A stretch of DNA of 64,000 nt from Opitutus terrae PB90-1 (GTDB lineage: Bacteria > Verrucomicrobiota > Verrucomicrobiia > Opitutales > Opitutaceae), in NCBI RefSeq assembly GCF_000019965.1, contig NC_010571.1:1798001-1862000 (forward strand), written 5' to 3'. This document shows, piece after piece, positions 20,365-36,298 of this stretch. Both the position numbers and the translations under genes were made by a program. The notes beneath the pieces were generated by a model. It had not been told where the DNA came from. It searched no databases and saw only the letters and a list, made by a program, of their open reading frames with translations. The first letter of the stretch is position 1. The number at the start of each line of letters is the position of its first letter.

Positions 20365-20388
20365 GACGGAATCGTTTGGGCTGAATTT

Positions 20389-21529: not shown

Positions 21530-21548
21530 GTTCAAAGGGAGAAGCGGG

Positions 21549-22889
21549 TTACAACTGGGAATCGGCAGCCGTGGTCGGCAGGGGGTCGAGGCCGAGCGCG
21601 CGGCGGAGCCCGACGAGCGCGAGCCGCTCGTCGACGGCGGCGAAGGTGTGGCGCAGGCGGGCTTCGATGAGCCGGCTCTCGGCGCCGATCACGTCGGCGG
21701 TGAGCACGGCCTGCTTCTCGAACCGCGCGCGGGTGAGCGCGGCGCTCTCCTCGGCTTGGGCGACGGCGGCGGTGGTGACGTTCAGCCGCTCGCGTGCGTC
21801 GGCGTGGGCCAGCCGGGCCTGCTCGGCCTCGAGTTCCATGCCGAGCGTCGCCTTGCGAAGCATCTCCTTCACCTGCGTCACCTCGGCCCGGCTTTGACGG
21901 ATCTTTCCGGACGTTTGGCCGCCGTCGAAAACGTTCACGTCGACCGACACGCCGGCGAGCCAGCTCTTGCCGTCGCGGTTCATCTCCCAGCCTTTGTCGT
22001 ATTGGTAGGAGGCGAACGCGTTGACGGTGGGGCGGCGCGCGCCGCGGGCGGAGTCGACCATGGCTTCGGCGGCGCGGAGCCGAGCCTGGAGTCCGAGGAG
22101 CTCGGGCCGGTGCGAGACGTCGCGCGAGTCCGGCGCGGTGAGACGGGCCAAGGTCGGATCGTCTTCGGCGAGTTCGACGGGTTCCTCCGACGCGTCGAGC
22201 CCGAGGACAAACCGGAACGCACGGGCGGCGAGCGCCGCACTGTGGCGGGCGGCGGACAGCGACTCGCGGGTTTGCGCGAGCTGGACCTCGAGACTGAGCA
22301 GGTCGGACTTGAGCATCTGGCCGGCTTCGAACCGCGCGCGGGCAACGGCGACGGCGGCATCGTAGGCCTTCACGCCCGCCTCGACGGCGCCGACGGCTTC
22401 GCGGGCTTTGCGGAGATTGAGCGCGGCCTTGACGACCTCAGCGGCGAGTTGCTGCCGGGCGGCCTGGAGGTCGAGATCGGCGGCCTCGGCGCCGGCGCGG
22501 GCGGCGGTGCGACCAGCGGTTGCGCGGCCGCCGCTATAGAGATTGTAGCCGATCGTGCCGGTGGCATTCAGGTTGTCGATCTGACCGGGATGGTTGAAGT
22601 CGATCGTGTTGTTGAACGCCCGCTGGTTGAGGATCGAGCCGAACGCCATCATCGGGCTATTGGTCTCCGTGTAGCGGCCGGACACGGTCAACTGTGGCAG
22701 CCAGGCCGAACGCGCCTGCTCGACGAGCGCTTGGGCGCCATCAACGCGGGCACGGGCGATCCGGGCGTCGGGACTCTGTTCGAGGGCGGTGGCGACGGCA
22801 CGCTCGAGGGTCCAGGTCTCGGCGCGCGCGCTGCCTGCGGCCAGCAGGGCGGCCAGCACGGCGGAAAAAAGGAGGCGGTGGGAGCTCAT
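21549..22889 (-). CDS. TolC-family outer-membrane efflux protein
   Basis: This is a 446-residue protein with a Sec signal peptide (LLFSAVLAALLAAGSARA). Two repeats of long helices and short strands follow (LERAVATALEQSPDARIARARV at the front; LIEARLRHTFAAVDERLALVGLRRAL at the end). The conserved WLPQLTVSGRY and beta-strand regions match the family. It should form the trimeric outer-membrane channel for the RND pump encoded just downstream. Start at 22889 (ATG) was preferred to the TTG at 22895. Confidence 0.92.
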   Translation of the reverse strand: MSSHRLLFSAVLAALLAAGSARAETWTLERAVATALEQSPDARIARARVDGAQALVEQARSAWLPQLTVSGRYTETNSPMMAFGSILNQRAFNNTIDFNHPGQIDNLNATGTIGYNLYSGGRATAGRTAARAGAEAADLDLQAARQQLAAEVVKAALNLRKAREAVGAVEAGVKAYDAAVAVARARFEAGQMLKSDLLSLEVQLAQTRESLSAARHSAALAARAFRFVLGLDASEEPVELAEDDPTLARLTAPDSRDVSHRPELLGLQARLRAAEAMVDSARGARRPTVNAFASYQYDKGWEMNRDGKSWLAGVSVDVNVFDGGQTSGKIRQSRAEVTQVKEMLRKATLGMELEAEQARLAHADARERLNVTTAAVAQAEESAALTRARFEKQAVLTADVIGAESRLIEARLRHTFAAVDERLALVGLRRALGLDPLPTTAADSQL

Positions 22890-22941
22890 GGCCAAAGGGG
22901 GAAGGTGGACGGGTGCGCGTGGGAGCGCGGCGGCCGAGAAG

Positions 22942-23015
22942 ATGTTACCTATTAAATGACATTGCCGGGAGGGCGCCGGGGGAAGCCGAGGGAGATGTCA
23001 CTTAATAGGTGACAT
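22942..23015. repeat. Inverted pair of a 21-base palindromic element
   Basis: The 21-mer at 22995-23015 (arms ATGTCAC/GTGACAT) and the reverse complement of 22942-22962 agree at 19 of 21 positions, separated by 32 bases. The pair lies between the TolC and DUF6132 genes. A related pair, with core GTAACCYAATRGGTTAC, is at 42949-43013. Confidence 0.6.
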
Positions 23016-23034
23016 GGTGTGGGGAGCGGAGCGG

Positions 23035-23217
23035 TCAGGCGGTGCGGGAGGTGAGCGCGATGAGGAGGCCCATGGTGCCGCCGTAGAGGGCGCCGCGCCA
23101 CCAGGTGGAGGTGAGCGGGCAGGTGCCTGAGGTGCACTGGCCGAAGTAACCGAGCGCGGCGCCAAGGCCGGCGCCGATCACGATCGGCAACAGGAGGCGG
23201 ACGAGCGGGTGCTGCAT
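23035..23217 (-). CDS. DUF6132-like small membrane protein
   Basis: This is a 60-residue protein with two membrane segments (LLPIVIGAGLGAALGYFG and GALYGGTMGLLIAL). A conserved polar loop between them holds the cysteine pair GQCTSGTCPLTS. Genes of this kind are often found beside rhodanese/DUF2892 genes, and here it directly follows DUF2892 with 12 bases between. The Cys pair could bind or relay sulfur; that is inference. Confidence 0.75.
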   Translation of the reverse strand: MQHPLVRLLLPIVIGAGLGAALGYFGQCTSGTCPLTSTWWRGALYGGTMGLLIALTSRTA

Positions 23218-23229
23218 GGCGGGGGCGGA

Positions 23230-23460
23230 TCAGGCGTGGGACTTGACGCCGCCCCAGTGGATCACGTCGTTGGCATCGACCCAGCCGAGCTTGCGGAGGA
23301 AAAGGGTGGGCGGGCAGAAGCCGGTGAAGGCGGACTGAATCAGGTTGGCGCCAACGAAAGCGGGGAGCAGCAGCCACCAGGGGCTGACGAATGCGGCGAG
23401 GGCGGTGCCTAGCAGGGTGAAGGTGCCGGCGAGGGCGCGGATGAAGGAATCGGTTTTCAT
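23230..23460 (-). CDS. DUF2892 (YgaP membrane-domain-like) protein
   Basis: This is a 76-residue protein with two closely spaced membrane helices (FTLLGTALAAFVSPWWLLLPAF and ANLIQSAFTGFCPPTLFL). FCPPTLFLRKLG matches the end of the DUF2892 fold, which in E. coli YgaP is the membrane part fused to a rhodanese. Here the rhodanese is a separate gene in the same set. It is the first gene of the leftward set, divergent from arsR-1. The ATG at 23460 begins only 18 bases from the operator. Confidence 0.85.
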   Translation of the reverse strand: MKTDSFIRALAGTFTLLGTALAAFVSPWWLLLPAFVGANLIQSAFTGFCPPTLFLRKLGWVDANDVIHWGGVKSHA

Positions 23461-23468
23461 GGTTGGGC

Positions 23469-23497
23469 TTGACAGTAAATGCGCATATACGCATATA
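23469..23497 (+). promoter_or_regulatory. Promoter for arsR-1 with opposed -35 for the divergent operon
   Basis: TTGACA (23469-23474), a 17-base spacer and CATATA (23492-23497) form a good rightward promoter. On the other strand TTGACA lies at 23515-23510, pointing at DUF2892. The operator fills the space between. Predicted transcription start is only a few bases from the arsR-1 ATG at 23509, so that mRNA may be nearly leaderless. Confidence 0.6.
23479..23494. promoter_or_regulatory. Operator O1 of the ArsR-1 divergent region
   Basis: ATGCGCATATACGCAT is a near-palindrome: ATGCG and CGCAT flank CATATA. It lies inside the spacer of the arsR-1 promoter, where a bound repressor would block both directions. 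The O2 site at 34049 matches it at 14 of 16 positions. Confidence 0.7.
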
Positions 23498-23508
23498 AGC
23501 AGTCAGCG

Positions 23509-23868
23509 ATGTCAAACGAATTTTGTGCGATTTCTTCCGGCCGGCCGCCGCCGCTGACCGATGCGACGATCGAGCTGGTGGCGGGGCGGTTTGCCGTGCT
23601 CGCCGAGCCGATGCGGCTGCGGCTGATCCACGCGCTCTTCGGGGGCGAGAAGAGCGTCAGCGCACTCGTCGAGGAGAGCGAAGGAACGCAGACCAACGTC
23701 TCGCGACACCTGCAGACGCTGATGCATGCCAATATGATAGCGCGGCGGAAGGAGGGACACCAAGTCTTTTACCGGATCACCGATCCTTCGATCGCGCACC
23801 TGTGCGAGCTGGTGTGCGGCAGCCTCAAGCAGCAGCTCACGCATCAGGCCGAGGCGTTCGAGTCGTAG
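23509..23868 (+). CDS. ArsR-family transcriptional repressor 1
   Basis: This is a 119-residue winged helix-turn-helix regulator. The recognition region is SALVEESEGTQTNVSRHLQTLMHANMI (residues 51-77) with the wing RKEGHQVFYRI. The classical metal box of ArsR is absent. Instead two cysteines sit in the last helix, CELVC (Cys99, Cys103). The same CELVC pair is in ArsR-2, so both may sense an oxidant or sulfur species through a dithiol. The start at 23509 was chosen because the upstream ATG at 23479 lies inside the operator. Confidence 0.9.
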   Translation: MSNEFCAISSGRPPPLTDATIELVAGRFAVLAEPMRLRLIHALFGGEKSVSALVEESEGTQTNVSRHLQTLMHANMIARRKEGHQVFYRITDPSIAHLCELVCGSLKQQLTHQAEAFES

Positions 23869-24254: not shown

Positions 24255-24737
24255 CTATTGTCGCAGCCAGCCGTCCGAGAGAATCCGCGCGCGGAGTCCG
24301 CCGCGGCCGCGCAGCCAGTCGTTGGCGCCGGGCCCGAGCGCCTGGTCCATCCAGTAGCATGGCCGGCATTCCTCGGTCCCGAAAAACCGCACGCCCTGCA
24401 GCTCAAATTCGCTGCCGACCAGCGAGGCGAGATCGATCCCGCGCGTGAACACGTTGCGTCGCGTGGCTTCCGGCCGGGCCAGCGGCGATCCGAGTTCGCG
24501 CTGCAGCTGCACAAACGTCTCCAGCGCGAAGAAGGTGATCTGGCCCTTGTAGTCGGGCCGGTAGTCGAAGAAGCGATCGCCGCGCACGCCGCGACCAGCG
24601 ATGCACTCGAGTGCGTCGACGACTTCCACTGCGGCTTCACCTGCGGGTCCGCCGTGATGGCCGAAGAAGTTGTGCGCCGGCGAACGGGTGAGCAGCTGGA
24701 CCGTGTCTGAGGCGAGAAGGGTGAGCGTCGGGATCAT
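24255..24737 (-). CDS. MOSC-domain protein
   Basis: This is a 160-residue single-domain protein. VRGDRFFDYRPDYKGQITF and GSEFELQGVRFFGTEECRPC are the core MOSC strands, with the conserved cysteine in EECRPC (near residue 130). MOSC domains bind molybdenum cofactor or carry sulfur for its sulfuration. As last gene of the sulfur-respiration set, it may service the molybdopterin enzyme encoded upstream. Its ATG overlaps the cytochrome gene stop by four bases, so translation is probably coupled. Confidence 0.8.
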   Translation of the reverse strand: MIPTLTLLASDTVQLLTRSPAHNFFGHHGGPAGEAAVEVVDALECIAGRGVRGDRFFDYRPDYKGQITFFALETFVQLQRELGSPLARPEATRRNVFTRGIDLASLVGSEFELQGVRFFGTEECRPCYWMDQALGPGANDWLRGRGGLRARILSDGWLRQ

Positions 24738-26863
24738 GGCGGAAGAACGCACGAGGAGCTGCGCCGTGTGAGGAGCGCGGCAAAATCGGCGAGTGACTGC
24801 TGCATCACCGGCGAGTTGTCTGCATGGCAAGTGAGACACGCGCCGACGCGGAGGATCCGACGCTGTTCATTGGCGGTGAACGGCCGGACATCACCGCGCA
24901 ACGCCCGCCCAGTGGCCCCGTCCTCCAGGAAACCGATCCAGGCGTCGGCCGGCAGCCCGTCGTCGGCGGCGGGCTGAGCGGGTTTGAAGGTCCACCGGCC
25001 GCCGGTGTCCGAGACGACGTAGTCGAGCTGACCCTCGCCGTAGCCGAGCGCGACGGGATCGTTGTGGCATGAGCGGCAGGAGCGCCCCTCGCGACGGACG
25101 GTGTGTGCCGCTGTCGGAGCGTAGAGCCGGCGGAATACGGTGTCGGGGCGCGCGCCGGCGGTCTGGTTGCGATTCACGGTAAGAATCATGCCCGGGATGA
25201 AGGTATCCACCCGACCTGCCGGGCGAGCGGAGTCGCGTGAATCGAACCGAATACCGAGTGTCGGCGGCACCGCTGCGAAAGCTCCGGAGGTCTCCACCCA
25301 CGCGCTGGCCGTGTCCGTCTGCATCAGGTGGTCGAAGCCGGCGGCGATCGGATCGAACGAGGTATGGCAGCTGGCGCAGCGCGGCGCCCAGGCGGTGTGG
25401 CAGCTGCTGCAGGACAGCCGCTGGTGGCTGTCGCGACCGGCGCTGCACGCGGCCGCGGGAGGCTTGAGCGCAACCCACTCGCCCGTGGGTTTGCGGCGGA
25501 GCCGGCCGCGGCCGGCGGTGTCGACGCTGACGTTGACCAAAAGCTCGCCGGTGCGCGAAGCGCCGAAGCGCTGGCCGGCCGGCAGCGACCAGCGGCGAAG
25601 CGCGAGCACGCGGGCCGACTCGTCGTCCAACGCGTTAGACGGTTTGGAACGCAGCTGCGCGGCGTGGCAGTCTTCGCACCGGAACAGCAGCTGGTCGGAT
25701 TTGTGGGCGACGGTTTTTCCCGCGCCCATGACCTCGACGCCCGAGTGACAGTCGATGCACTCGAGTCCGAGCTCCTGGTGCACGTCGGCGGGCATCCGCC
25801 TGAACCAGCGGCCATCGTCAAGCTGTCGGAACCGAGCGGTTGACGGAGGGCGGTCGACTTCGGCCAACGTCGGGGGCTCGCGCAGTTCGTGCCAGCCCTC
25901 GTAGTTGGTGGCGATTCGGCTGGAGCGGCTGTGGCAGCCGAAGCAGGCCGCGTTGCCGACTTGGATCGAGAGGTTCGGATGAACGCGTGGCACGGCGCGG
26001 TCGCCGGCGGGAGTGGCGAGGTAGCGGTCGAGTTCGCGCGCGGCATCGAATGAATAGCGCAGGTGACAGGCGTTGCAGCCGCCGCCGCGCGACTGCTGGT
26101 GAATCGCGCCCCACTCGGTCTTCGGCTGACCGAGATGGCAGGAGGCACAAAGCTGGCGTAGATGCGTGTCAGCCGCGCTGGTGCCGAGTTGGCGGACGTG
26201 CGGTGAAGGGGCCACGGGATCGACGACTTCGCCGAAAACGCGGCGGTCGGCGGTGACTGCGCCGGCGAAGGTGGTCATGATCGATCGCTCAACGCGCGGC
26301 AGAATGTCCGGATGGCAGCCGGTGGTGCCGCAGCTGCGCGGCGCATTGATCAGATTGCCGGGGATCAGGATCATGCCGGCGTGCGCCGCGGTGGCGTCGC
26401 GTGCGGTGGCATTGCCTGCGTGGCACGAGGCGCAGCCGATGCGCTGGGGCGAATGCGCCTCGCTGAATCCGGTGATCGCGGCGTGGCACTCGAGACAGCT
26501 CTCGGTGGCGAGCTTGGCGGCCGAGGCGCTGCGGTGCACCTGAACGCCGAAGCTGGCGAAGGCGTAGATGGCGATGGCGACGGTGGTGCCGAGCAGCGCT
26601 CGGTGCGACCAGCGCGTTGGCCAGCGGAGTGCGAGGCGGCCCATGGCCCAGCCGGCGACGGGCGCGACCAGGGCGGCCAGCAAGGGCGCGATCCACTCGC
26701 GGGCGGGAAAACTGCTCGTGTCCTTCGAAGCCGACGCGGTCCAGCCGAGAAGACCCGCGAGCAGCGTCGCGGCGCACGCGATTGCGACCGGGAGTATGGC
26801 GATCGTGCGCCCGTGCGGGAAGCGTCGGCGCAGCGGATCTGGCTCGGGGAAATCGCGCCCCAT
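24734..26863 (-). CDS. Membrane-anchored dodecahaem cytochrome c
   Basis: This is a 709-residue protein. Three hydrophobic segments (about 21-42, 58-76, 88-108) anchor it, with no cleavable signal. The rest should be periplasmic. I count eleven CXXCH sites: CLECH, CASCH, CASCH, CNACH, CFGCH, CIDCH, CEDCH, CSSCH, CASCH, CRSCH and CLTCH. One CX4CH (CGTTGCH, residues 178-184) makes twelve haem sites. A VERSIMTTFAG-type stretch follows the CX4CH site; I have a recollection of similar stretches in multihaem cytochromes of sulfur bacteria, which is unverified. Likely role: electron transfer between the quinone pool or NrfD-type anchor and a sulfur redox enzyme, or itself a reductase. It follows the YedE-rhodanese gene by 45 bases and overlaps the MOSC gene. 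Confidence 0.9.
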   Translation of the reverse strand: MGRDFPEPDPLRRRFPHGRTIAILPVAIACAATLLAGLLGWTASASKDTSSFPAREWIAPLLAALVAPVAGWAMGRLALRWPTRWSHRALLGTTVAIAIYAFASFGVQVHRSASAAKLATESCLECHAAITGFSEAHSPQRIGCASCHAGNATARDATAAHAGMILIPGNLINAPRSCGTTGCHPDILPRVERSIMTTFAGAVTADRRVFGEVVDPVAPSPHVRQLGTSAADTHLRQLCASCHLGQPKTEWGAIHQQSRGGGCNACHLRYSFDAARELDRYLATPAGDRAVPRVHPNLSIQVGNAACFGCHSRSSRIATNYEGWHELREPPTLAEVDRPPSTARFRQLDDGRWFRRMPADVHQELGLECIDCHSGVEVMGAGKTVAHKSDQLLFRCEDCHAAQLRSKPSNALDDESARVLALRRWSLPAGQRFGASRTGELLVNVSVDTAGRGRLRRKPTGEWVALKPPAAACSAGRDSHQRLSCSSCHTAWAPRCASCHTSFDPIAAGFDHLMQTDTASAWVETSGAFAAVPPTLGIRFDSRDSARPAGRVDTFIPGMILTVNRNQTAGARPDTVFRRLYAPTAAHTVRREGRSCRSCHNDPVALGYGEGQLDYVVSDTGGRWTFKPAQPAADDGLPADAWIGFLEDGATGRALRGDVRPFTANEQRRILRVGACLTCHADNSPVMQQSLADFAALLTRRSSSCVLPP

Positions 26864-26908
26864 GGTTCGGCTCCGCGGCGTTGAAAAGGCGGACGAGGTC
26901 CGCGACGT

Positions 26909-28168
26909 TCAGCAGCCTTCCTTTTTCTTGCGGGTCACCGGGCGTGGACCGGTGGGCGCGGCGGGAGCTGGCGGAGCGATCTGCGGCAGTTCGGGCGCGG
27001 CGGGGATGATCGCCGCACCGGCACCCTGCGGACTGCCGCCGAAATGCCGGGCCACGGCGGCGCGACGCGCGAAGTCGATCTGTTCCCGAGCCGGAGCATC
27101 GGCGGCGGGCGCGCGTGGATAGAGCACCTGGGCCTGCCACGCCTCCACGCCACCAGAAAGCAGATACGCAGCGGGAAAACCAGCGGCGCGCAGGATCAGC
27201 CATGCCTGGGCGGCGTGCACGTCGGTGTCGGCGTAAACGATAATCCGCTCATTGTGCGCGGCGACCTCGGCGTTGAGGGCGGCGAGCGGCACGTTGGTGG
27301 CGGACGGCAGATGGTAGCGCGCGAACGCCGTGGAATCGCGAACGTCGATCAGTAGAAAATCGTTGCGGCCTTCGACGAGCCAGTCCGCCAGCTGGGCGGG
27401 CGCGATCAAGTCGGCGGTGCCGGCATCGAGGGCCAGTTGTTGCGTGTCGACGCGCGCGAACGCCCCGCGGTAGGGACCGCCGGCGACCGCGGCGAAGAGT
27501 CCGATGGCGACGAATGCCAGCGCGAGCCGGCGCACGGGCACCAGTCGGCGGGTGGGCGCGAGCAGCGAGTCGGGCTCGGGCGGCTTGCCGCCGACCTTCT
27601 TCTCGGCCCATTCGGCGGCGACGAACGCGCCGATCGCCATCAGCACCACCGCAGCCACGAGCACGCCGTAGGGGATGTGGAGAAGCTGCGGCAGCGTGAT
27701 CTTTCCGAGCGGAGTGGACTGGGCAAAGTTTGCGATCGACGGATAGACTTCCGCAAAACCGGCCAGCCCGCCGACCATCCCCGCGAGATAGACCAGGCCG
27801 TCGATGCGGCCGGTGGCGGCGGAGACGCAGGACGTGCCGGGGCAGTAGCCGCCGATGATGAAGCCGGCGCCGAGGATGACTCCGCCGACGATCTGCGGCA
27901 GAAGCAGCGTGGGGGTGAGATAAATGAGCGACAGGTCGAGCACGCCGACGCGCGCGAGGACGAAGACGCCGACCATGGCAGTGATGATCGCGGTGAACAT
28001 CACCTTCAGCACGCGCAGATCGCGGAAGTAGAACTGGGCGGCGAGCACGCGGGCGTTGCCGAATCCGGCGCGTTCGAGCACGAAGCCGAAGGCAATGCCG
28101 ATCACGAAAGCGACGATCAGCGAAGCTTCGTCGCCGAAGAGCCCGTATTTGAAAAAGGGAGCGTTCAT
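26909..28168 (-). CDS. YeeE/YedE-type transporter fused to a rhodanese fold without its cysteine
   Basis: This is a 419-residue protein. Residues 1-185 form about six membrane segments with the conserved GGYCPGTSCVSAATG (residues 107-120), the sulfur-compound pathway motif of YeeE/YedE proteins, some of which import thiosulfate. A seventh segment is near 212-230. Residues 250-345 form a rhodanese fold (FLLIDVRDSTAFARYHLP ... YLLSGGVEAWQ), but the active loop reads VYADTDVHAA with no cysteine. The C-terminus ends KKKEGC, with a final Cys. The start at 28168 has GGAGG eight bases before it and overlaps the preceding stop by four bases; an ATG at 28174 is too close to that ribosome site. Confidence 0.88.
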   Translation of the reverse strand: MNAPFFKYGLFGDEASLIVAFVIGIAFGFVLERAGFGNARVLAAQFYFRDLRVLKVMFTAIITAMVGVFVLARVGVLDLSLIYLTPTLLLPQIVGGVILGAGFIIGGYCPGTSCVSAATGRIDGLVYLAGMVGGLAGFAEVYPSIANFAQSTPLGKITLPQLLHIPYGVLVAAVVLMAIGAFVAAEWAEKKVGGKPPEPDSLLAPTRRLVPVRRLALAFVAIGLFAAVAGGPYRGAFARVDTQQLALDAGTADLIAPAQLADWLVEGRNDFLLIDVRDSTAFARYHLPSATNVPLAALNAEVAAHNERIIVYADTDVHAAQAWLILRAAGFPAAYLLSGGVEAWQAQVLYPRAPAADAPAREQIDFARRAAVARHFGGSPQGAGAAIIPAAPELPQIAPPAPAAPTGPRPVTRKKKEGC

Positions 28169-28704
28169 AGCCATTGCCTCCGGAAGAACCAGGCGAGTCC
28201 ATACGCCCCGGCGAAGACGCACATCATGAAGGCCCAGCTGCCGACGTTGAGCAGTGCGCCGCCGGTGAGCGCCTGGCCGCTGGTGCAGCCCAGTGCGAGC
28301 TTGGCGCCGATGCCCATCAGCGCGCCGCCGACGAAGGCCAGGACCAGCCGGAGCGCGGTGGTGGCGCGCGGACCTTTTTCGACGGTCACCTTCAGCCGGT
28401 GCGCCAGGGCGCCGGAAAGGAAACCGCCGACGAACACGCCGAGCACCTGGAACACGAGCCAGTCCTTCAGCGGACTCGTGGTGCCGTCGCCGAGATACTC
28501 CTGGTAGAACGCGTTCCCCTCGGCATGCGCAGGGGCGACGGCGTGCACGGTGGTGGCGACCGCGGTGGTGAAGGCGCCGGAGGCACCGAGTCCGCGGCCC
28601 ATCACGACAAAGGCGGTGAGCAGCACGAGACCGAGCGCGAAGCCGGCCCAGTAGGGGTTCATGTGCGGCTTCGGCGGATAAGCAGGATCAGTGGACGAGG
28701 ACAT
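28165..28704 (-). CDS. DUF6691/YeeE-YedE half-transporter
   Basis: This is a 179-residue protein with about four or five membrane segments. It carries GIGAKLALGCTSGQALTGGALL near residue 138, the second cysteine motif of the YeeE/YedE fold. Such half-size proteins come in pairs; the partner is the next gene, with a four-base overlap, so the two probably assemble into one channel for a sulfur compound such as thiosulfate or sulfide. The substrate is inferred. Confidence 0.88.
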   Translation of the reverse strand: MSSSTDPAYPPKPHMNPYWAGFALGLVLLTAFVVMGRGLGASGAFTTAVATTVHAVAPAHAEGNAFYQEYLGDGTTSPLKDWLVFQVLGVFVGGFLSGALAHRLKVTVEKGPRATTALRLVLAFVGGALMGIGAKLALGCTSGQALTGGALLNVGSWAFMMCVFAGAYGLAWFFRRQWL

Positions 28705-28716
28705 GAGGGAGCGAAT

Positions 28717-29760
28717 TTATTGGGCGGCCATGGTCCAGTGGCTGGCTTGGCCGGCGGCGACGAAGATGATGCGCAGCGCGAGCCCGCCGATGAGGATGAG
28801 CACGGCGGGGGCGAGCGAGTGACGGATGCGGTGTTGCAGTTCGAGTCCCTGCAGCACCAGCGGCAGCAGGATCCCGAGTCCGACAACAAAGACCCAGAAC
28901 ACCGCGGCGTAGGGGCCCGTGAGGATGAGCGCGGCGGCTTGTTGTCCGACCGCGGTCGAGCTGGAGAGCCCGATCAGGAGCAGTCCAAGCAGCGCGAGCT
29001 CGATAGTGAGAAAGCTGTTGTCGGCGCGCTGCAGGATGGGACCGATGCTCGGGTCGGGGGCGCGGCCCTGCGACCAACGCGCGAGGCTGGAAAGCAGGAA
29101 GTCGACGAACTCCGGCCGCTCATCCTTGCGCGAGGTCAGCACGAGAATGCCGTGGAGCAGCGCCGCCGCCGTCGAAAGCCCCGAGAAAAGGAAGAGCGGT
29201 CCCAGAATCGCGCTGTTCCAGAGCGGCCGCGCTGAGAGCGCGGAAAGAAGTATGCCGGTGTAGACGCCGAGCGCGACGCCGAGCAGCATGTTGCCCAGTC
29301 CGATGGCGATGATGAGCCGGCTGCGCGCGAGGATGAAGTCGCTGATCGTGACCAGGACGGGGAAACGTCGCGCGAGCGCGGGGATTGCTTCGGGGAGATG
29401 CGTCAGGGCGTTGGCCAGGAGCGCGGGATACACGAGCAACAGGATCCACGAGCCCCACGACATCGGCGACGTGGGCTGGAAGGTGAGATACAGCCGCCAG
29501 ACATAGGGCTTGTGGGTGAGGTCGAGAAACAGCGCGAGCATGCCGATGCTCAGCAGGGCGATGCCGACGAGCGGACCGATCGTGCAGCAAACCATGGACT
29601 GCCGCTCGCGCGGTTGCACCACCAGCAGCCGGACGCCGGCGATGATCATCAATCCGGCCACCAGCCCGCCCAGGTAGAGATAGACGGGAATTTCCCAGCC
29701 CCAGAGGTGCAGCACGGGATCGATGCCCGGAGTGTGGCGATGGAGGGTGAATTCGGTCAT
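28717..29760 (-). CDS. NrfD/PsrC-type quinone-interacting membrane subunit
   Basis: This is a 347-residue protein with about eight to nine membrane segments. The start HLWGWEIPVYLYLGGLVAGLM is characteristic of PsrC/NrfD. It should anchor the iron-sulfur and molybdenum subunits encoded upstream and exchange electrons with menaquinone. It lies 16 bases after the iron-sulfur gene and 12 bases before the DUF6691 gene. Confidence 0.93.
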   Translation of the reverse strand: MTEFTLHRHTPGIDPVLHLWGWEIPVYLYLGGLVAGLMIIAGVRLLVVQPRERQSMVCCTIGPLVGIALLSIGMLALFLDLTHKPYVWRLYLTFQPTSPMSWGSWILLLVYPALLANALTHLPEAIPALARRFPVLVTISDFILARSRLIIAIGLGNMLLGVALGVYTGILLSALSARPLWNSAILGPLFLFSGLSTAAALLHGILVLTSRKDERPEFVDFLLSSLARWSQGRAPDPSIGPILQRADNSFLTIELALLGLLLIGLSSSTAVGQQAAALILTGPYAAVFWVFVVGLGILLPLVLQGLELQHRIRHSLAPAVLILIGGLALRIIFVAAGQASHWTMAAQ

Positions 29761-29776
29761 GGCGCGCGGCGGAGTT

Positions 29777-30316
29777 TCACGTGAGGTAGTAGATCCGCGG
29801 TTTCGTGCCGGCTTCGGGCAACAGGGCGTGATGCGGGCGCGACGCGAGGAGCCGGCTCACTTCGCTCAAGGGATCGTCGCCGTCGCCAAAATGCATGCAG
29901 TGCGTCGGACAAACGGATACGCAGGCGGGCTTCAGTCCCTTTTCCACGCGGTGAATGCAGAAGGTGCATTTGTCGGCGTAGCCGTCCGGATGGATGAAGC
30001 GTGCGTCGTAGGGGCACGCGGCGAGGCACGCCTTGCAGCCGATGCACTTCTCGGGCGTGACGAGCACCACCCCGCCGCGATCGTGCACGTGGCTGGCGCC
30101 GGTCGGGCAGCAGTGAACGCAGGGCGGATTGTCGCAGTGGTTGCAGCGCTCGCTGCGAATCTCCATCTGCAGCGTGGGGAACTCGCCGTGGACGGTCTCG
30201 GTGATCCAGTCGCGATTGTAGCCCTCGGGGACGTGGTTCTCCGTCTTGCAGGCGACCACGCAGTCCATGCAGCCGACGCAGCGCCGCGTATCGATGACCA
30301 TCACGTAGCGTGCCAT
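29777..30316 (-). CDS. Four-cluster ferredoxin subunit (PsrB-like)
   Basis: This is a 179-residue protein with four 4Fe-4S motifs: CVGCMDCVVAC, CNHCDNPPCVHCCPTGA, CIGCKACLAACPYDAR and CTFC...CVSVC. Order and length match PsrB/DmsB-type electron-transfer subunits. It links the molybdenum subunit to the membrane anchor. There is no own export signal, so it probably travels with the Tat-exported catalytic subunit. The start at 30316 lies two bases after the catalytic gene's stop. Confidence 0.95.
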   Translation of the reverse strand: MARYVMVIDTRRCVGCMDCVVACKTENHVPEGYNRDWITETVHGEFPTLQMEIRSERCNHCDNPPCVHCCPTGASHVHDRGGVVLVTPEKCIGCKACLAACPYDARFIHPDGYADKCTFCIHRVEKGLKPACVSVCPTHCMHFGDGDDPLSEVSRLLASRPHHALLPEAGTKPRIYYLT

Positions 30317-30318
30317 GG

Positions 30319-32514
30319 TCAGACCGCCTCCGCGGGTTCGAGGGTGACGAAGTTCACGTTCATCGCGGTGCCGCCCATGAGCGGGTCGGTCTTGTAGCGC
30401 GTGATGAGCTGGGCATCGCTCGCGCCCTTGCCGAACGCGTGACGCAGTCCGCGGGCGGTGTGGCCGAAGCCGTGGACGAGGAAAACGCAGTCCGGGCGGA
30501 TGCGCGGGGTGGCCTTGACGAGCACGGTGTTGCTGAGCATGCCGTCCTGGTTGCGGAGTCGCACGCGATCGCCGGTCTTCAGGCCGAGCCGGCGGGCGGC
30601 GACGGCGTTGAGCCACACGGCGTTTTCGCTCATCAGATCGGAGAGCAGCCGGTTGGTGTGCGTGCGGCTGAAGGAGTGCATCGGCGCCCGGCCGAACAGG
30701 AGCCGGAAGGTGCCCGGCGGTGCCGGCTCGGGCGGCGTGTAGCGCGGGACCGGATCGAAGCCGGCGTCGGCGAGCTGGTGGGAGTAGAATTCGATCTTGC
30801 CGGAAGGCGTGGGAAATTCGGCGGGCACGCCGTCATCGAAATAGATCGGCTGGCGCGGGCCGCGGATCAGGCCCTCGCGCTGGAGCTGTGCGAGGCTCAA
30901 TCCCGCGGAGCGGAGTCGGGTCTCGAGATACTGCTCGATGTCCTGCCAGGGGAAGAACGCGCCGAGCCCGAGCTTGTCGGCGAGCTTTTTGGCGATCCAC
31001 CAGTTCGGCTTCTGGTCGTGCGGCGGCTCGACGACGGGCTGGCGCAGCGCGACGAACGGCTCCTTGAACAGCTCGACGTTCAGGTCGTCATAACGTTCGA
31101 GGTAAGTGGTCTCGGGCAGCACCACGTCGGCCCAGCCGGCGATTTCGCTGGGAATGACATCGACGACGACCAGCAGATCGAGCTGCTGGATCGCGCGGAT
31201 CGTTTCGGCCTCGTTGGGCAACGCCTGCAGGAGATTCGTCGCGTAGACCATCCAGCCCTTGATCGGGTAGGGCTGGCCGGTGAGCGTGGCCTCGCGGATG
31301 CCGGTGGTGATCGCTTCGTGGGCGAACGGATACTTGCGCCCGGGATTGTCGACCTTCGGCTTGGTGGATTTCGGATACGCCGGATAGGGATACGCGGCGA
31401 CATCCATGCTGGCGGGCGTGTAAAACCCGCCCTTGTGGCCCCACGAACCGAGCAGGGCATTCAGCAGCGCGATTGCGCGGCTGCGCTGCGCGTCGTCGCC
31501 GTTCCAGTTCACGTGCCGGCCCGGATGCACGAGCGTCGCCGGCCGGTGCCGCGCCATTTCGCGCGCGGTGACGCGGATCGTTTCCGGATCGATCCCGGTC
31601 TCGGGGAAAGCCCATTCCGGCGTGTAGCTCGCGAGCGAGGCGGCGAAGGCGTCGAAGCCGTGGCCGTGGCGTGTCACGTAGTCGGCGTCGTAGAGTTTTT
31701 CCGTCACGATCACCTGCATCCACGCCAGCAGAAGCGCGAGGTCGGTGCCGGGCCGGATCGGCAGGTAATGCGCGGCCTTGCTCGCCGCGACGGAGAACCG
31801 CGGGTCCACCACGATCAGCCGCGTGCCGCGACCGACTGCGTCGGCGAACTCCTGCACCTGGGTGTTGTGCATGTTCTCGCCGAGGTGGGAGCCGATCAGA
31901 ACGAGGCACTCGGCGTTGGCGATGTCGGTCCGCTCAGGCGAGCCGACCTCTTCGCCGAACGTGAGATTGAAACCAACGTCGCGCGGACCGCGGCACTGGG
32001 CGAAGGACGGCGCGGCGATGTTGGGCGAGCCGTAGGCTTTGAACGCGTGCTTGAGGAACGTGCCACCGATGCCGTGCGCGAACAGCGCCATCGACTCCGG
32101 CCCGTGCTCAGCGGCGATCTTCTTCATGCGGGCGGCGACGTAGTCGAGCGCCTCGTCCCAGGTGACCGCCTTCCACTCCTCCGCGCCGCGTTCGCGCGTG
32201 CGGATCAGCGGCGTGCGCAGCCGATCCGGGTCCGTGTGCGCGCCGATACCGCCCGTGCCGCGCGGGCAGAGCCGACCGCGACTGAGCGGATCGTTGGGAT
32301 TGCCTTCGATTTTCCAGAGCTGTCCGTCGCGGACGCTCGCGATCGCGTTGCACTTCCAGAAGCAGATGTCGCAGAACGTCGGCACGCGCCGGACACCAAG
32401 CGCGGGCCGGGTGGCGGCCGTCGTGGCGGCACTGACGAGTCGACCTGCCGCCCCGGCGGCGAACAGCGCGGCCGTGGAGATCTTGAGGAAACGACGGCGG
32501 GAGAGCGCGGGCAT
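30319..32514 (-). CDS. Tat-exported molybdopterin oxidoreductase (PsrA/PhsA-like)
   Basis: This is a 731-residue catalytic subunit. The Tat motif SRRRFLKIS is at residues 5-13. The 4Fe-4S ligands CDICFWKC...CPRG are Cys48, Cys51, Cys55 and Cys83. A candidate Mo-ligand cysteine is Cys174 in SFAQCRGP, at the position expected for polysulfide/thiosulfate reductases. The C-terminal cofactor domain has GDRVRLRNQDGML. The complex with the next two gene products should work in the periplasm on an inorganic sulfur compound: polysulfide, thiosulfate, tetrathionate or, in reverse, sulfite. Other members of the DMSO-reductase superfamily cannot be ruled out. The ATG at 32514 directly precedes the Tat motif. 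Confidence 0.92.
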   Translation of the reverse strand: MPALSRRRFLKISTAALFAAGAAGRLVSAATTAATRPALGVRRVPTFCDICFWKCNAIASVRDGQLWKIEGNPNDPLSRGRLCPRGTGGIGAHTDPDRLRTPLIRTRERGAEEWKAVTWDEALDYVAARMKKIAAEHGPESMALFAHGIGGTFLKHAFKAYGSPNIAAPSFAQCRGPRDVGFNLTFGEEVGSPERTDIANAECLVLIGSHLGENMHNTQVQEFADAVGRGTRLIVVDPRFSVAASKAAHYLPIRPGTDLALLLAWMQVIVTEKLYDADYVTRHGHGFDAFAASLASYTPEWAFPETGIDPETIRVTAREMARHRPATLVHPGRHVNWNGDDAQRSRAIALLNALLGSWGHKGGFYTPASMDVAAYPYPAYPKSTKPKVDNPGRKYPFAHEAITTGIREATLTGQPYPIKGWMVYATNLLQALPNEAETIRAIQQLDLLVVVDVIPSEIAGWADVVLPETTYLERYDDLNVELFKEPFVALRQPVVEPPHDQKPNWWIAKKLADKLGLGAFFPWQDIEQYLETRLRSAGLSLAQLQREGLIRGPRQPIYFDDGVPAEFPTPSGKIEFYSHQLADAGFDPVPRYTPPEPAPPGTFRLLFGRAPMHSFSRTHTNRLLSDLMSENAVWLNAVAARRLGLKTGDRVRLRNQDGMLSNTVLVKATPRIRPDCVFLVHGFGHTARGLRHAFGKGASDAQLITRYKTDPLMGGTAMNVNFVTLEPAEAV

Positions 32515-32530
32515 GGGGACGCGGACTCGC

Positions 32531-33937
32531 TCAGAACCGGTGGCTGTAGAGCACCTGAGCGTTGTTTTGGGAATGCTCAACGCGAATGCCGCCGCCATTG
32601 GTGACCGCGTGGGCGAATCCGTGCGAGTAGGAGACATCGATGGAGGAGGCCTCATTGAGCTTCCAGCCGCAGCCGAGGGTCAGATGCTTCTCGACGGTCG
32701 CGGGGAAGAGGCAGTTCAAATACTGCGCCGGGATCGGATCCTTGCCGTGATTGGCGCCGAAGCGGACCGTGAAGGTGTCGGTCGCCTGCCAAGCGGCGCC
32801 GAGTTGGAAGATCGTCTGGTCGGACCAGCGCTGATACAGCGTGGCGTTGAGATCCTGGCCGGCGAAGTTACCGTTGCTCGTGGCGTTCGAGGCAACGAAG
32901 CGCAGGTTGAAGTTTTCCATCACGCTCGCCCAGTAGACATGGCGGACATCGCCGGCGATCAGCCAGCGCGGCGTCGGGGTCCACGCGAACCCGGCGCCGA
33001 GCATCGCCGGCCATTCGAAATCGCGCACCGTGACATCACCGGCGAGCGTCTGCGGCACATGTCCCATGCCCGGAACATTCAACTGGAAGCTGATGCTGTT
33101 GCCGGGCGCCTTGAGATCGGACAGCCTGGTTTGCGAATGATAGGTCGCGCCGAACGTGAGGGTGGGCGAGACCTTGTAGACCACGCCGATCTTGCCGGCA
33201 TAGCCGGAGCCGGAAGCCTCACCGGTGAAGTCCGAACCGTTGGCGAAGTTGAAATAAGCGTAGTCGACCGACGTGCCGGGCGGCATTTGCTGCAGGGCCT
33301 GGCCGAAACCCTGGACAATCCCGCCGGATGCGAGGCCGATCTGCTGCGTGCTGACCAGATCCATGAACTGGGCGCCGGTCATAGCCATCTGCAGATCCAT
33401 GCCGGCCCAGACGAAGTCCGCCGTCGCGGCGATGGTGAGGGCCTCGTTCACCTGCCAAGCGAGGGGCACGATGACGCGGCCGACGGACACCTCGGTGCGG
33501 TTCTTCAGCCCGAAACCGAGACCGCGCCATGTGTTGGCGTCGTATTCGCAACCCATGCCGCCCTGGCCGAAGATGCCGAGTCCGTAGACGAGCGCGCCGC
33601 TGCGGCGGGTGTAGCCGAATGCCGGCATGAAGAATGCGGTCGCTTCCGACTCGGCGCTGGCGCCATTCGGGGCGGTGGCGGTGATTTGCGGACCGAGCAC
33701 GCCGAGCGCGAGGTCCAGCCGGGCGGTGGCCGTCTGGAGGGACAGCGTGGCCGGGTTGTTGATGACGGCGGCGGCGCCGTTGTCGTAGGCCATGGAGGCG
33801 CCGCCAAGCGCGGTGGCGACAGGGCCATAGCCCTCCATGTTCATGCCATTGGTGGCGGCGAGCCGCGGGACCGTGAGGACGAGCGCGAGGCTGGCGGGCC
33901 AAATGAGGGAGCAGAGCCGGAGACGGGGTCGTTTCAT
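32531..33937 (-). CDS. FadL/OmpP1/TodX-family outer-membrane protein
   Basis: This is a 468-residue protein with a signal peptide (residues 1-28). The hatch-domain start TNGMNMEGYGPVATALGGAS and later alternating strands ending in a C-terminal aromatic residue (VLYSHRF) fit a 14-stranded barrel. FadL-type porins admit hydrophobic molecules. Its place as first gene of a sulfur-respiration operon suggests uptake of a hydrophobic sulfur form such as elemental sulfur or polysulfide; that is inference. The gene is 16 bases before the molybdopterin gene and divergent from arsR-2. Confidence 0.9.
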   Translation of the reverse strand: MKRPRLRLCSLIWPASLALVLTVPRLAATNGMNMEGYGPVATALGGASMAYDNGAAAVINNPATLSLQTATARLDLALGVLGPQITATAPNGASAESEATAFFMPAFGYTRRSGALVYGLGIFGQGGMGCEYDANTWRGLGFGLKNRTEVSVGRVIVPLAWQVNEALTIAATADFVWAGMDLQMAMTGAQFMDLVSTQQIGLASGGIVQGFGQALQQMPPGTSVDYAYFNFANGSDFTGEASGSGYAGKIGVVYKVSPTLTFGATYHSQTRLSDLKAPGNSISFQLNVPGMGHVPQTLAGDVTVRDFEWPAMLGAGFAWTPTPRWLIAGDVRHVYWASVMENFNLRFVASNATSNGNFAGQDLNATLYQRWSDQTIFQLGAAWQATDTFTVRFGANHGKDPIPAQYLNCLFPATVEKHLTLGCGWKLNEASSIDVSYSHGFAHAVTNGGGIRVEHSQNNAQVLYSHRF

Positions 33938-34048
33938 GGGGCGAAGAAAGCGCGCGGGGACGGACGGGGAGTTGCGTTGCGGGGCGGGGAACGGCTAAAC
34001 TACAACCCAATCAGAAATTCTACTTTTGTAACGACGCAGAATAAGTAT

Positions 34049-34064
34049 ATGCACATATACGGAT
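34049..34064. promoter_or_regulatory. Operator O2 of the ArsR-2 divergent region
   Basis: ATGCACATATACGGAT matches O1 at 14 of 16 bases. It lies 40 bases before the arsR-2 ATG and about 112 bases before the FadL start, in a locally AT-rich divergent region. A TATATG hexamer overlaps it and could be a -10 element. Confidence 0.65.
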
Positions 34065-34103: not shown

Positions 34104-34439
34104 ATGCCTAAGAAGCCACGCCAATTGTCTGATGAAGCCCTGATGATGATCGCCCGCCGGTTCAGCGTGTTGTCCGAGCCGCTGCGGCTGCGGCTGATCC
34201 ATGCACTCTTCGAAGGCGAGAAGAACGTTAACACGCTGGTCGACCTGACCGGCGGCACGCAGGCCAATGTGTCGCGGCACCTGCAGACACTCACGCAGGC
34301 GCATATCCTCAGTCGCCGGAAGGACGGGCTGCAGGTTTTCTACGCGATCGCGGATCCGACGATTTTCGAACTCTGCGAGCTGGTGTGCGGCAGCCTGGAA
34401 AAACAGTTCGCCAAACAGGCGGAGGCGTTCGAGCGATAG
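34104..34439 (+). CDS. ArsR-family transcriptional repressor 2
   Basis: This is a 111-residue paralogue of ArsR-1, nearly collinear with it (SEPLRLRLIHALFEGEKNV, NVSRHLQTLTQAHILSRRKDG). The only cysteines are the CELVC pair in the last helix (Cys91, Cys95). It likely represses the leftward eight-gene set and itself. The leader is CTTCTCCTTCTCCCC right before ATG, with no Shine-Dalgarno site. Confidence 0.9.
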   Translation: MPKKPRQLSDEALMMIARRFSVLSEPLRLRLIHALFEGEKNVNTLVDLTGGTQANVSRHLQTLTQAHILSRRKDGLQVFYAIADPTIFELCELVCGSLEKQFAKQAEAFER

Positions 34440-34503: not shown

Positions 34504-35109
34504 CTACTTCCGCAGATCGTAGAGCGCGTAGCCGGCGAAAAAATTCGGGCGGAAGCGGCAGGGCGTGTGCCAGTCGCCGCGGAGGTAAACGCGCCGCGTG
34601 ACCGTGATGCCCTGCACCGCGCAGAAGTGCTCGAAATCGGCGATCGAAACGGGATTCGACGGCCGGCTCTCGAACCATTCGGTCGTGTAGACGTCGTTGC
34701 GCACCTTGCGACCGCGCAGCAGGGCGTCGGCACGGTTTTTCCAGAAGCCGTGGTTCACGAACCCGACCGTGAGCGCGTGGCCGGCGCGCAGTGCCTCGAG
34801 AATGACGGCCGTGGGGTTGTCGAGCTCCTGCACGGTGCGTGAGCAGATGACGCGGTCGAAATGCCGGTCGGGAAACTCGCGCATGAACCCCGTCATGTCG
34901 CCTTGATACGCGGACAGCCCCCGCGCCACGCAGGCGGTGATCCGGCGAAAATCCAGGTCCACGCCCACCGCGCGCACGTCTTTCGTCTGCACGAGATAGG
35001 CGAGCAGGTCACCGCGGCCGCAACCGAGGTCGAGCACGCGCGAAGCGGGCTCGACCCACTCGGCGATGATCTCCATGTCCACGGCGCGTTTTTCGACGGG
35101 CTTGCTCAT
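34504..35109 (-). CDS. metW: Methionine biosynthesis protein MetW
   Basis: This is a 201-residue methyltransferase-fold protein with RVLDLGCGRGDLLAYL (motif I) and RGLSAYQGDMTGFM. Its context and sequence match MetW, which is required for, or stimulates, the MetX acyltransferase in many bacteria. The gene begins four bases after the metX stop. Confidence 0.92.
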   Translation of the reverse strand: MSKPVEKRAVDMEIIAEWVEPASRVLDLGCGRGDLLAYLVQTKDVRAVGVDLDFRRITACVARGLSAYQGDMTGFMREFPDRHFDRVICSRTVQELDNPTAVILEALRAGHALTVGFVNHGFWKNRADALLRGRKVRNDVYTTEWFESRPSNPVSIADFEHFCAVQGITVTRRVYLRGDWHTPCRFRPNFFAGYALYDLRK

Positions 35110-35113
35110 GGCG

Positions 35114-36298
35114 TCAGATCGAATAGTCCAGCGCAGCCGGCGCATTGCCCTCGAGGAAGGCGCGGACGAGGGTGTAGAGTTCCTCCGACTCGAGCAGGAA
35201 CGAGTCGTGGCCGAGGTCGGTGGTGAGCTCGGCGTAGCTGGCCGATTTGCCGGCGCGCAGCAGCGCGAGCGTGATCGCGCGGTTCTGCTCGGGGGGAAAG
35301 AGCCAGTCGCTGGTGAATCCGACGGAGAGCGTTTGCGCCTGCACCGGAGCAAACGCCGCCTCGAGCGAGCCGTAGACCTGCGGCAGGTCGAAATGATCGA
35401 GGGCGCGGGTGATGTAGAGATACGTGTTCGCGTCGAACCGGTTGATGAACGCCTGTCCCTGGTGCTGAAGGTAGCTCTCCACCTCGAACTGCACGTCGAA
35501 CGTGTACGCGCCGCCGGTGCCGTTGCCCTTGCGGCGGCGGCCGAACTTCCGGTCCATGCTGGCGTCGGAGACGTAGGTGATGTGGGCCATCATGCGGGCG
35601 ATCGCCAGGCCGACGCGCGGGCCGCCGCCCTTGGCGTAGTCGCCATGGTTCCACTCCGGATCCTGCATGATCGCCTGCCGGCCGACCTCGTTGAACGCGA
35701 TGGCCTGCGCACCTTCGCGCGCGGTGGTGGCCATCGCGATCACGCGGCGGACGTAGGCGGGGTATTCGATCGCGAATTGCATCGCGAGCATGCCGCCCAT
35801 CGACCCTCCCAGGACCGCGTGCAGGGCATTGATGCCGAGATGATCCAGCAGCAGTTTCTGCGACCGGACCATGTCGATGATCGTGACGAAGGGGAACGCG
35901 AGCCCGTACGGCTGATTGGTGGCGGGATTAGTGGACGACGGCCCGGTCGAACCCTGGCAGCCGCCGAGCACGTTGGCGCAGACCACGAAGAACTTCGTAG
36001 TGTCGACCGCCTTGCCGGGCCCGATCAGGTTGTTCCACCAGCCGGGCTTGCGGTCCTCCGGCGTGTGCAGCCCGGCACAATGATGATCGCCGCTCAGCGC
36101 ATGGCAGATCAGGATGACGTTGTCGCGCGTAGCGTTGAGCGTGCCGTAGGTCTCGTAACGGAGCGTGAATCCCGGGAGTGTCTGGCCGCTGTTAAAAGTG
36201 AAAGGCTGCGCGTGGGCGAAGTCTTGGGGCGTGACGAGGCCCACTTCGCCTAGGGTGTGGCGGTGAGGCACGGCGGAATCCGCAACATCGTCAGTCAT
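35114..36298 (-). CDS. metX: Homoserine O-acyltransferase
   Basis: This is a 394-residue alpha/beta hydrolase. The nucleophile elbow is LGGSMGGMLAMQF. The oxyanion-side ILICHALSGDHH and the terminal DLGHDSFLLE with the catalytic His complete the triad. It makes O-acetyl- or O-succinyl-homoserine, the first dedicated step to methionine; which acyl group is used cannot be told here. The start at 36298 (MTDDVADS) fits the family; an upstream in-frame ATG adds only poor sequence. Its product would feed the cystathionine gamma-synthase-like enzyme at 59.6 kb. Confidence 0.93.
   Translation of the reverse strand: MTDDVADSAVPHRHTLGEVGLVTPQDFAHAQPFTFNSGQTLPGFTLRYETYGTLNATRDNVILICHALSGDHHCAGLHTPEDRKPGWWNNLIGPGKAVDTTKFFVVCANVLGGCQGSTGPSSTNPATNQPYGLAFPFVTIIDMVRSQKLLLDHLGINALHAVLGGSMGGMLAMQFAIEYPAYVRRVIAMATTAREGAQAIAFNEVGRQAIMQDPEWNHGDYAKGGGPRVGLAIARMMAHITYVSDASMDRKFGRRRKGNGTGGAYTFDVQFEVESYLQHQGQAFINRFDANTYLYITRALDHFDLPQVYGSLEAAFAPVQAQTLSVGFTSDWLFPPEQNRAITLALLRAGKSASYAELTTDLGHDSFLLESEELYTLVRAFLEGNAPAALDYSI

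Follow-up and report, generated by a model that had tools for sequence, protein, structure and literature searches.

A conserved gene module of Opitutus terrae predicted to link periplasmic zero-valent sulfur reduction with sulfur import, and its Cys-less rhodanese domain with a Cys-terminal tail

The window analysed in the present work is a stretch of 64,000 nucleotides from Opitutus terrae PB90-1 (NC_010571.1, positions 1,798,001 to 1,862,000), and it contains an operon of eight genes (positions 24255–33937) that codes for a FadL channel, three subunits of a Psr-type reductase, two YeeE/YedE-type proteins (the second of which is fused to a rhodanese domain), a dodecahaem cytochrome and a MOSC-domain protein. 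On a narrow balance of probability, we interpret this operon as encoding a quinol-linked periplasmic reductase of zero-valent sulfur (polysulfide, perhaps derived from S8) that is tied, physically or functionally, to an inner-membrane importer of zero-valent sulfur. The operon is characterized by its gene content, a conserved gene order, the clade of its catalytic subunit, invariant residues, the loss of the catalytic Cys from its rhodanese domain, a Cys-terminal tail behind that domain and a private operator-like box. All eight genes lie on the minus strand, and the spacings from the FadL gene to the MOSC gene are 16, 2, 16, 12, −4, 45 and −4 bases, in agreement with the preliminary description of this DNA, which had placed an eight-gene operon here with spacings of 2–45 bases and two 4-base overlaps.

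The conservation of the operon was examined in the surroundings of PsrA relatives, 335 of which were found by a scan of named genome contigs. The best 80 of the 335 (67–85% identity over the best segment) and two regions from other genomes make up the 82 loci considered here, among which L009 and L013 lie on the same contig and L019 seems to be a near duplicate of L020; in 16 of the 82 the contig ends too early for the core to be assessed, leaving 66. The genes for PsrA, PsrB, NrfD, YeeE1, YeeE2 and the rhodanese are present in this fixed order and on one strand in 64 of these 66 loci, and because this order recurs so widely the gene set is beyond chance. The 71 of the 80 named loci that carry a phylum name in their NCBI record titles fall under eleven such names (viz. 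Verrucomicrobiota 16, Acidobacteriota 14, Ignavibacteriota 13, Bacteroidota 10, Myxococcota 7, Gemmatimonadota 4, Chlorobiota 2, Pseudomonadota 2, and Planctomycetota, Calditrichota and Eiseniibacteriota with 1 each), nine being without a phylum; the majority of the loci are metagenome bins, for which individual placements may be wrong. The closest named PsrA relatives are from the Opitutaceae, and PsrA of the module clade is rare in a sample of Verrucomicrobiota (3 of 288 genomes). Phyla are intermixed in a quick tree that includes 31 of the 83 module PsrA sequences, where a Planctomycetota record groups with one from the Myxococcota and an Opitutaceae record lies near the Acidobacteriota, and this mixing suggests horizontal transfer of the module. 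The complete eight-gene order is also found in L011, together with both flanking ArsR genes and the YgaP-like, TolC, MFP and RND genes, and L019/L020 contain all eight genes with those for the MOSC protein and the cytochrome swapped. A gene order conserved nowhere else, which would have contradicted the preliminary description, is thus not observed; the unit conserved across phyla is the six-part core and not the set of eight genes.

The reductase is encoded by the genes for a PsrA-like molybdenum catalytic subunit (30319–32514), a PsrB-like multi-cluster ferredoxin subunit (29777–30316; domain and family matches) and a membrane anchor of the NrfD/PsrC type (28717–29760; PF03916, 127 bits; eight hydrophobic helices by hydropathy), and the occurrence of all three together is characteristic of the three-subunit Psr/Phs enzymes. 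A Tat-type motif, RRRFLK, lies near the start of PsrA, and in all 83 sequences covering more than 70% of the query (the window included, as in the residue counts below) Cys48, 51, 55 and 83 of the 4Fe-4S site and Cys174 are invariant; the last is a putative molybdenum ligand, as we presume from an alignment with 2vpw and from general knowledge. Among PDB sequences, PsrA scores 698 bits with Thermus PsrA (2vpw), 211 with acetylene hydratase, up to 170 with formate dehydrogenases and 156 with ArrA, and its NCBIfam scores are 512 bits for PhsA, 235 for formate dehydrogenase, 229 for DmsA/YnfE, 166 for NasC, 159 for ArrA, 98–101 for NapA and 72 for TtrA. In the quick tree the 31 sampled module PsrAs form a single clade (support 100) with Thermus PsrA next to it (support 99), so far as a limited reference set allows placing PsrA in the PsrA/PhsA clade. 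Motifs, profile scores and tree accordingly agree with the Tat-exported molybdenum reductase of the preliminary description, and an arsenate or nitrate reductase, either of which would have contradicted it, is ruled out by the NCBIfam and PDB scores. The NrfD subunit gave no match in a PDB sequence search. From homology, PsrABC is predicted to reduce polysulfide; that it works like Psr and that it is PhsA are separate claims.

The two YeeE proteins, which had been recognized previously as a pair of YeeE/YedE type, are supported as such by domain matches and by one invariant Cys in each half: C140 of YeeE1 (28165–28704) is conserved in 67 of 67 sequences and C111 of YeeE2 (26909–28168) in 66 of 66. 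Two half-proteins with a single conserved Cys each are the hallmark of YedE1E2-type transporters. According to PMC10812762, a homologous YedE1E2 pair stimulates the import, and not the export, of polysulfide and S0, and loss of the conserved Cys of either half abolished uptake of zero-valent sulfur; C140 and C111 presumably correspond to the published Cys104 and Cys101. By analogy, YeeE1/YeeE2 is likely an importer of zero-valent sulfur.

The preliminary description was silent on the rhodanese domain (27116–27403) that follows YeeE2 and on the Pro/Ala-rich tail (26909–27043) that ends this protein with KKKEGC at the stop codon. When read by eye, the rhodanese is a separate open reading frame (ORF) with one N-terminal hydrophobic anchor in 40 loci, and in 24 loci it continues YeeE2 in one protein, with a basic loop and an additional helix between the two; since the anchors, the basic loop and the extra helix fit the positive-inside rule, the domain is predicted to be periplasmic. 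At the position of the catalytic Cys, 65 aligned rhodaneses have Ser (49), Ala (10, as in the window), Gly (4), Thr (1) or Cys (1), and a catalytic rhodanese is ruled out by the absence of the active-site Cys from 64 of the 65. A Cys is found instead at the end of the tail: Gly-Cys is the C-terminus in the window and in 61 of 62 complete relatives, two further relatives being cut by contig ends. In the sole exception (L012, 14342–15598) the frame is broken and a tail ending in KKKKREGC lies in the next ORF; the break may be a sequencing error or real. All 62 tails, that of the window included, finish with Glu/Gln-Gly-Cys preceded by Lys or Arg, their linker is 24% Ala and 21% Pro, and in the window and in 49 of 61 relatives domain and tail contain no Cys besides the terminal one. 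As a control, 6727 other ORFs of these loci, each running from stop to stop over 80 codons or more (mostly not genes), were compared: Gly-Cys is the C-terminus of 25, and among these a basic run precedes it in the L012 tail alone.

A structure model of the YeeE2-rhodanese protein shows the rhodanese fold with confidence (predicted local distance difference test, pLDDT, 83–92 over the block), and its last 36 residues (386–421) have a pLDDT below 50, as a disordered arm would. The best 50 of 436 entries from a fold search with this model are of the rhodanese type, as judged by title, and include no YeeE/TsuA entry. A DNA pattern for the tail end, searched over 288 genomes, gave 15 matches in 15 genomes, 3 at the module (in all three module genomes) and 12 elsewhere; of the 11 off-module matches that were read, two lack a stop codon at their end and one closes an ORF of more than 100 amino acids (L122, 505 amino acids). 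Because a reversed control of this pattern gave 18 matches in 12 genomes, the DNA pattern by itself is not evidence for the tail; the protein comparison is. The genome contains one weak match to the TusA family. It is also conceivable, although we consider it unlikely, that the Gly-Cys tail is a signal for processing, anchoring or metal binding and not a sulfur carrier: the tail is short, basic and C-terminal like many sorting signals, whereas no hydrophobic helix is present in any of the tails printed and the tail stands behind a Cys-less rhodanese domain in both of the architectures inspected.

The FadL protein heading the operon (32531–33937; Pfam Toluene_X, 95 bits) matches TbuX and TodX in the PDB with 162–173 bits and E. 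coli FadL with about 21 bits, and with this kinship a small, neutral and hydrophobic substrate such as S8 is plausible. Strong FadL-family members occur in 14 of the 82 loci, mainly in Opitutaceae, directly upstream of PsrA in 13 of them and farther off in L015; a distant FadL-family barrel is encoded within about 10 kb, on either strand, in eight more loci, of which L035 and L053 have it directly upstream on the same strand. Such a channel could allow the use of extracellular insoluble sulfur.

These features can be combined into a working scheme, in which substrate, direction, topology and carrier chemistry are predictions. In Opitutaceae, small hydrophobic sulfur would enter the periplasm through the TodX-type FadL channel. 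Periplasmic polysulfide would then meet the pseudo-rhodanese linked to YeeE2, where the Lys-rich tail could draw in the anion, and the terminal Cys, as its conservation suggests, would take up the sulfane sulfur in place of the lost active-site Cys. Acting as a flexible swinging arm, the tail might pass this sulfur to the YeeE1/YeeE2 channel for import, to the molybdenum site of PsrA, or to both, and PsrABC would, by homology, reduce the sulfur that the arm delivers to sulfide with electrons from quinol. At the inner membrane, the ExtM-like cytochrome may act as an optional redox partner, and two ArsR paralogs may switch the sulfur operon and a YgaP-like/RND efflux operon together; the box is shared between the two operons, and its binding and the ligand are presumed. 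More tentatively, and as a possibility that we would not yet call probable, the module may represent a new kind of sulfur carrier, viz. a membrane-anchored, Cys-less periplasmic rhodanese whose sulfane sulfur is borne by the C-terminal residue of a long, disordered, Lys-tipped arm, and which feeds PsrA and YeeE1/YeeE2 within one six-part complex found across phyla.

A rather improbable alternative is that the operon encodes a reductase of thiosulfate (or tetrathionate), with PsrABC resembling PhsABC and the YeeE proteins importing thiosulfate or the sulfur released from it. PhsA is indeed the best NCBIfam match of PsrA, Thermus PsrA itself was deposited as a 'thiosulfate reductase', and both YeeE halves weakly match models of the TsuA thiosulfate transporter. 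However, PsrA stands closer to the Thermus enzyme than to PhsA of E. coli, to which it is 34% identical, uptake of zero-valent sulfur has been published for transporters made of paired halves like the present one (PMC10812762), and a TodX-type channel is ill-suited to a soluble dianion; the tetrathionate variant is further disfavoured by the low TtrA score.

The cytochrome (24734–26863) contains 11 CXXCH motifs and 1 CX4CH motif, consistent with the 12 haems and the periplasmic location originally assigned to it except that it is unlikely to be free in the periplasm: two N-terminal hydrophobic helices are indicated by hydropathy and three by a weak model (mean pLDDT 58.7, interpretable for the N-terminal helices only), and because of these helices the protein is probably membrane-anchored. 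The same count of 11 + 1 motifs is shared by 14 of 19 listed relatives, two of the other five being cut by contig ends. The protein matches the NCBIfam model of ExtM with 212 bits (E 1.5e-62) over nearly the full model, short of the curated cutoff of 800, and the ExtN and ExtO models more weakly; a profile search against the PDB gave weak matches to cytochromes of the nitrite reductase type and nothing else. ExtM-like cytochromes are present in 18 of the 82 loci (many of which have short flanks), upstream or downstream and on either strand, and anywhere in the genome in 18 of 50 genomes tested, a set that was not drawn at random. Of the 288 Verrucomicrobiota genomes sampled, 2 contain them, both with PsrA and one of them the window's own, so that the independent count is 1 of 2 genomes with PsrA versus 0 of 285 without it; the cytochrome is an optional part of the module. 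Some relatives have a cytochrome b/DUF4405 domain ahead of the cytochrome or within the same protein. Fusions of a cytochrome b-type domain with the dodecahaem cytochrome are seen in L043 (7119–9908), L012 (15991–18837) and L049 (6755–9984), with a Tat-type Rieske gene upstream in some loci, and these proteins could form a quinol-oxidising partner complex. Near PsrA, a Rieske gene is found in 8 and cytochrome b domains in 10 of the 82 loci, in several phyla. A porin-cytochrome conduit of the Mtr/Pcc type was considered and rejected, as the barrel is TodX-like and the sole cytochrome of the operon has N-terminal hydrophobic helices, the search for cytochromes having been confined to the operon.

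The cytochrome is also the basis for an account to which we assign a low probability, namely a module for the reduction of selenite, tellurite or another oxyanion by sulfur-like selenium chemistry, in which the cytochrome would serve as its ExtM. The matches to ExtM, ExtN and ExtO and the weak matches of both YeeE halves to models of putative selenium transporters are in its favour, as is the addition of Rieske and cytochrome b genes in some relatives, which resembles the ext cluster, in which the reduction of selenite and tellurite is impaired when the porin gene extI is lost (PMC5877670). Its limited occurrence and its score far under the ExtM cutoff speak against this role for the cytochrome (homologues of ExtI and ExtKL were outside the search), whereas the sulfur-type partners, rhodanese and YeeE pair, accompany PsrA in 64 of 66 loci. 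The reverse direction, in which sulfide or polysulfide would be oxidised and an acceptor would receive the electrons by way of quinone, Rieske/cytochrome b and the dodecahaem cytochrome, is suited by the Rieske and cytochrome b genes as a quinol-oxidising outlet, but it is the least probable account, as no such outlet lies near most loci, Psr-type complexes are known as reductases, and a dsrA-family match is absent from the window's genome, so that there is no sign of a complete Dsr oxidation route (the search for sulfur oxidation genes being confined to this family).

The regulation of the operon involves more than the one ArsR gene assigned to it previously, as the region is bordered by two paralogous ArsR genes, both of which are divergent from an operon of their own. 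ArsR2 (34104–34439, plus strand; domain match) is divergent from the sulfur operon, and ArsR1 (23479–23868, plus strand; domain match; the coordinates are those of the ORF and the real start may be nearer to 23509) is divergent from an operon headed by a gene for a YgaP-like transmembrane protein (23230–23460, minus strand; PF11127, 42 bits), behind which lie TolC-MFP-RND efflux genes (16969–22895, minus strand) in the same arrangement as in L011. A C-x3-C pair, located near the C-terminus in ArsR2, is present in both proteins and in their close relatives and would make them putative sensors of thiols or persulfides. A pattern scan identified an ArsR-type operator-like box, TATATGCRYATAT, between FadL and ArsR2 (34046–34059), with a second copy between the YgaP-like gene and ArsR1 (23476–23498). 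With at most one mismatch, the box occurs at two places only in the 5,957,605 bases (5.96 Mb; a single contig) of the genome, these two intergenic regions, and its reversed control has one match; with at most two mismatches, the window has 8 overlapping matches at the two places versus 0.2 expected. Among 19 related loci scanned with at most two mismatches, five of which (L021, L023, L039, L041 and L054) are without a strong FadL, the box is present upstream of FadL in L009/L013, L011, L014, L015, L016 and L018, i.e., in 6 further genomes; it also precedes the YgaP-like gene of L011 and occurs close to the second ArsR gene of L069. The sulfur operon and the efflux operon (16969–23868) apparently constitute a private two-operon regulon.

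A number of observations weigh against the interpretation of the operon as a zero-valent sulfur reductase joined to an importer by a Cys-tipped arm. The score of PsrA with the PhsA equivalog NF012032 (512 bits) is below the curated cutoff of 694, which leaves PsrA short of equivalog status, and the tree contains seven reference enzymes, mostly on long branches (as the program warned), with PsrA of Wolinella and Shewanella, SrdA and ArrA outside it. Two Opitutaceae loci, L039 and L054, carry PsrABC with no match to YeeE or rhodanese within 10 kb downstream; one rhodanese (L085) retains the catalytic Cys, and a second Cys is present in domain and tail in 12 of 61 relatives. The YeeE2-rhodanese model is moderate to poor in its membrane part (mean pLDDT 65.7), because of which the topology is deduced from the basic loop and the anchors. 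The sequence upstream of FadL showed no box, at up to two mismatches, in L010, L012, L017, L019, L020, L069 and L072. The likeness of the cytochrome to ExtM points to selenite or tellurite as much as to sulfur (PMC5877670). Lastly, a partner protein in YeeE clusters that lack PsrABC ends in a Pro/Ala-rich KKKSAGC tail in 4 of 4 cases, and the Cys-terminal arm may therefore serve YeeE alone.

These clusters were identified in the Verrucomicrobiota sample, in which YeeE2-rhodanese occurs in its module form in 3 of 288 genomes, as a 33–38% identical paralogue in 9, and as a match to the membrane part only in 5 others. Four of the nine paralogue regions (L118–L121) encode YeeE1 and then YeeE2 with extra rhodanese domains, and PsrA, PsrB and NrfD have no match in these four wider regions. 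The partner protein beside the paralogue YeeEs has a beta-lactamase fold and rhodanese domains, three of which were counted in each protein scanned by Pfam (a scan that covered the clusters apart from YeeE2 of L120 and L121). The first rhodanese loop of the paralogue YeeE2 has Ser in place of Cys in 6 of 6 genomes, and the last rhodanese keeps its Cys in 4 of 4. The notion that pseudo-rhodanese and tail are exclusive to Psr is weakened by these Psr-less YeeE1-YeeE2 clusters with a Cys-less rhodanese and a Cys tail. The association of the arm with PsrABC is thus no closer than that with the YeeE pair, and since the Cys tail occurs in YeeE clusters without PsrABC, hand-over of sulfur to YeeE is favoured.

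Other features of the region include the small MOSC-domain protein at the end of the operon (24255–24737; PF03473, 30 bits; no NCBIfam match). In 20 other loci (L025, L027 and L070 among them), PsrA is directly preceded by a conserved gene for a MerR-family regulator. Just past ArsR2, positions 34504–36289 encode MetW (PF07021) and an alpha/beta hydrolase, which we take to resemble the homoserine O-acetyltransferase MetX; methionine synthesis genes thus adjoin the sulfur operon. A scan of the window for promoters and terminators yielded nothing exceeding shuffled sequences.

The activation, carriage and respiration of zero-valent sulfur outside the cytoplasm are poorly understood, and in sulfur-oxidising bacteria membrane transporters of S0 are described as not experimentally confirmed (PMC10045233). 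The locus combines, in one regulated unit, a reductase with a channel for small hydrophobes, a probable importer of sulfur and a conserved protein with a Cys tip, and it occurs in hosts (viz. Opitutaceae, Acidobacteriota, Ignavibacteria and Gemmatimonadota) that are not usually thought of as sulfur respirers. It offers a testable idea for the bacterial handling of poorly soluble extracellular sulfur, and the terminal Cys provides a single-residue handle on the whole model.

Within the open-licence literature, which is the part of the record covered here, we have found no named system with this combination of genes, as the preliminary description had supposed. The nearest relative of the window PsrA in sequence and tree is that of Thermus thermophilus PsrABC (2vpw), which presumably has the same three-subunit plan. 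Psr of Wolinella works with the periplasmic rhodanese Sud, and the YeeE2-rhodanese profile matches 1qxn, which we take to be Wolinella Sud, at 34.5 bits; in contrast to the Psr and Sud system, the window rhodanese is Cys-less, anchored or fused to YeeE2 and Cys-tailed, and YeeE1/YeeE2 are part of the core. PhsABC of the E. coli plasmid pSE11-3 belongs to the same enzyme superfamily (its A subunit being the 34% identical PhsA noted above), but its PhsC is a cytochrome b subunit by annotation and no YeeE or rhodanese is among the six surrounding features. SoxYZ, whose swinging arm Sauve is said to have described in 2007 (a reference given in PMC9959259), reportedly carries sulfur on a flexible peptide arm, as is proposed here; its fold is not known to be related, and the window arm differs in standing behind a rhodanese domain, being Lys-rich and having Cys as its last residue. 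The extHIJKLMNOPQS cluster of Geobacter sulfurreducens shares a dodecahaem ExtM-like cytochrome and the clustering of outer-membrane porin and rhodanese genes, whereas its published list of genes contains no molybdenum reductase, and ExtI is like phosphate-selective porins and not like TodX (PMC5877670). For Desulfurivibrio dismutans, PMC12142623 describes a psr operon with a secreted rhodanese protein and proposes YeeE/YedE for sulfur transfer; in contrast to the window, that operon contains a three-rhodanese sulfurtransferase, and the locus numbers of the YeeE/YedE genes named lie outside it. YedE1E2/PmpAB of Cupriavidus consists, like the window pair, of two halves with one conserved Cys each and has an ArsR/SmtB gene nearby; it is often found with a persulfide dioxygenase (PMC10812762), whereas the window pair occurs with PsrABC and a pseudo-rhodanese.

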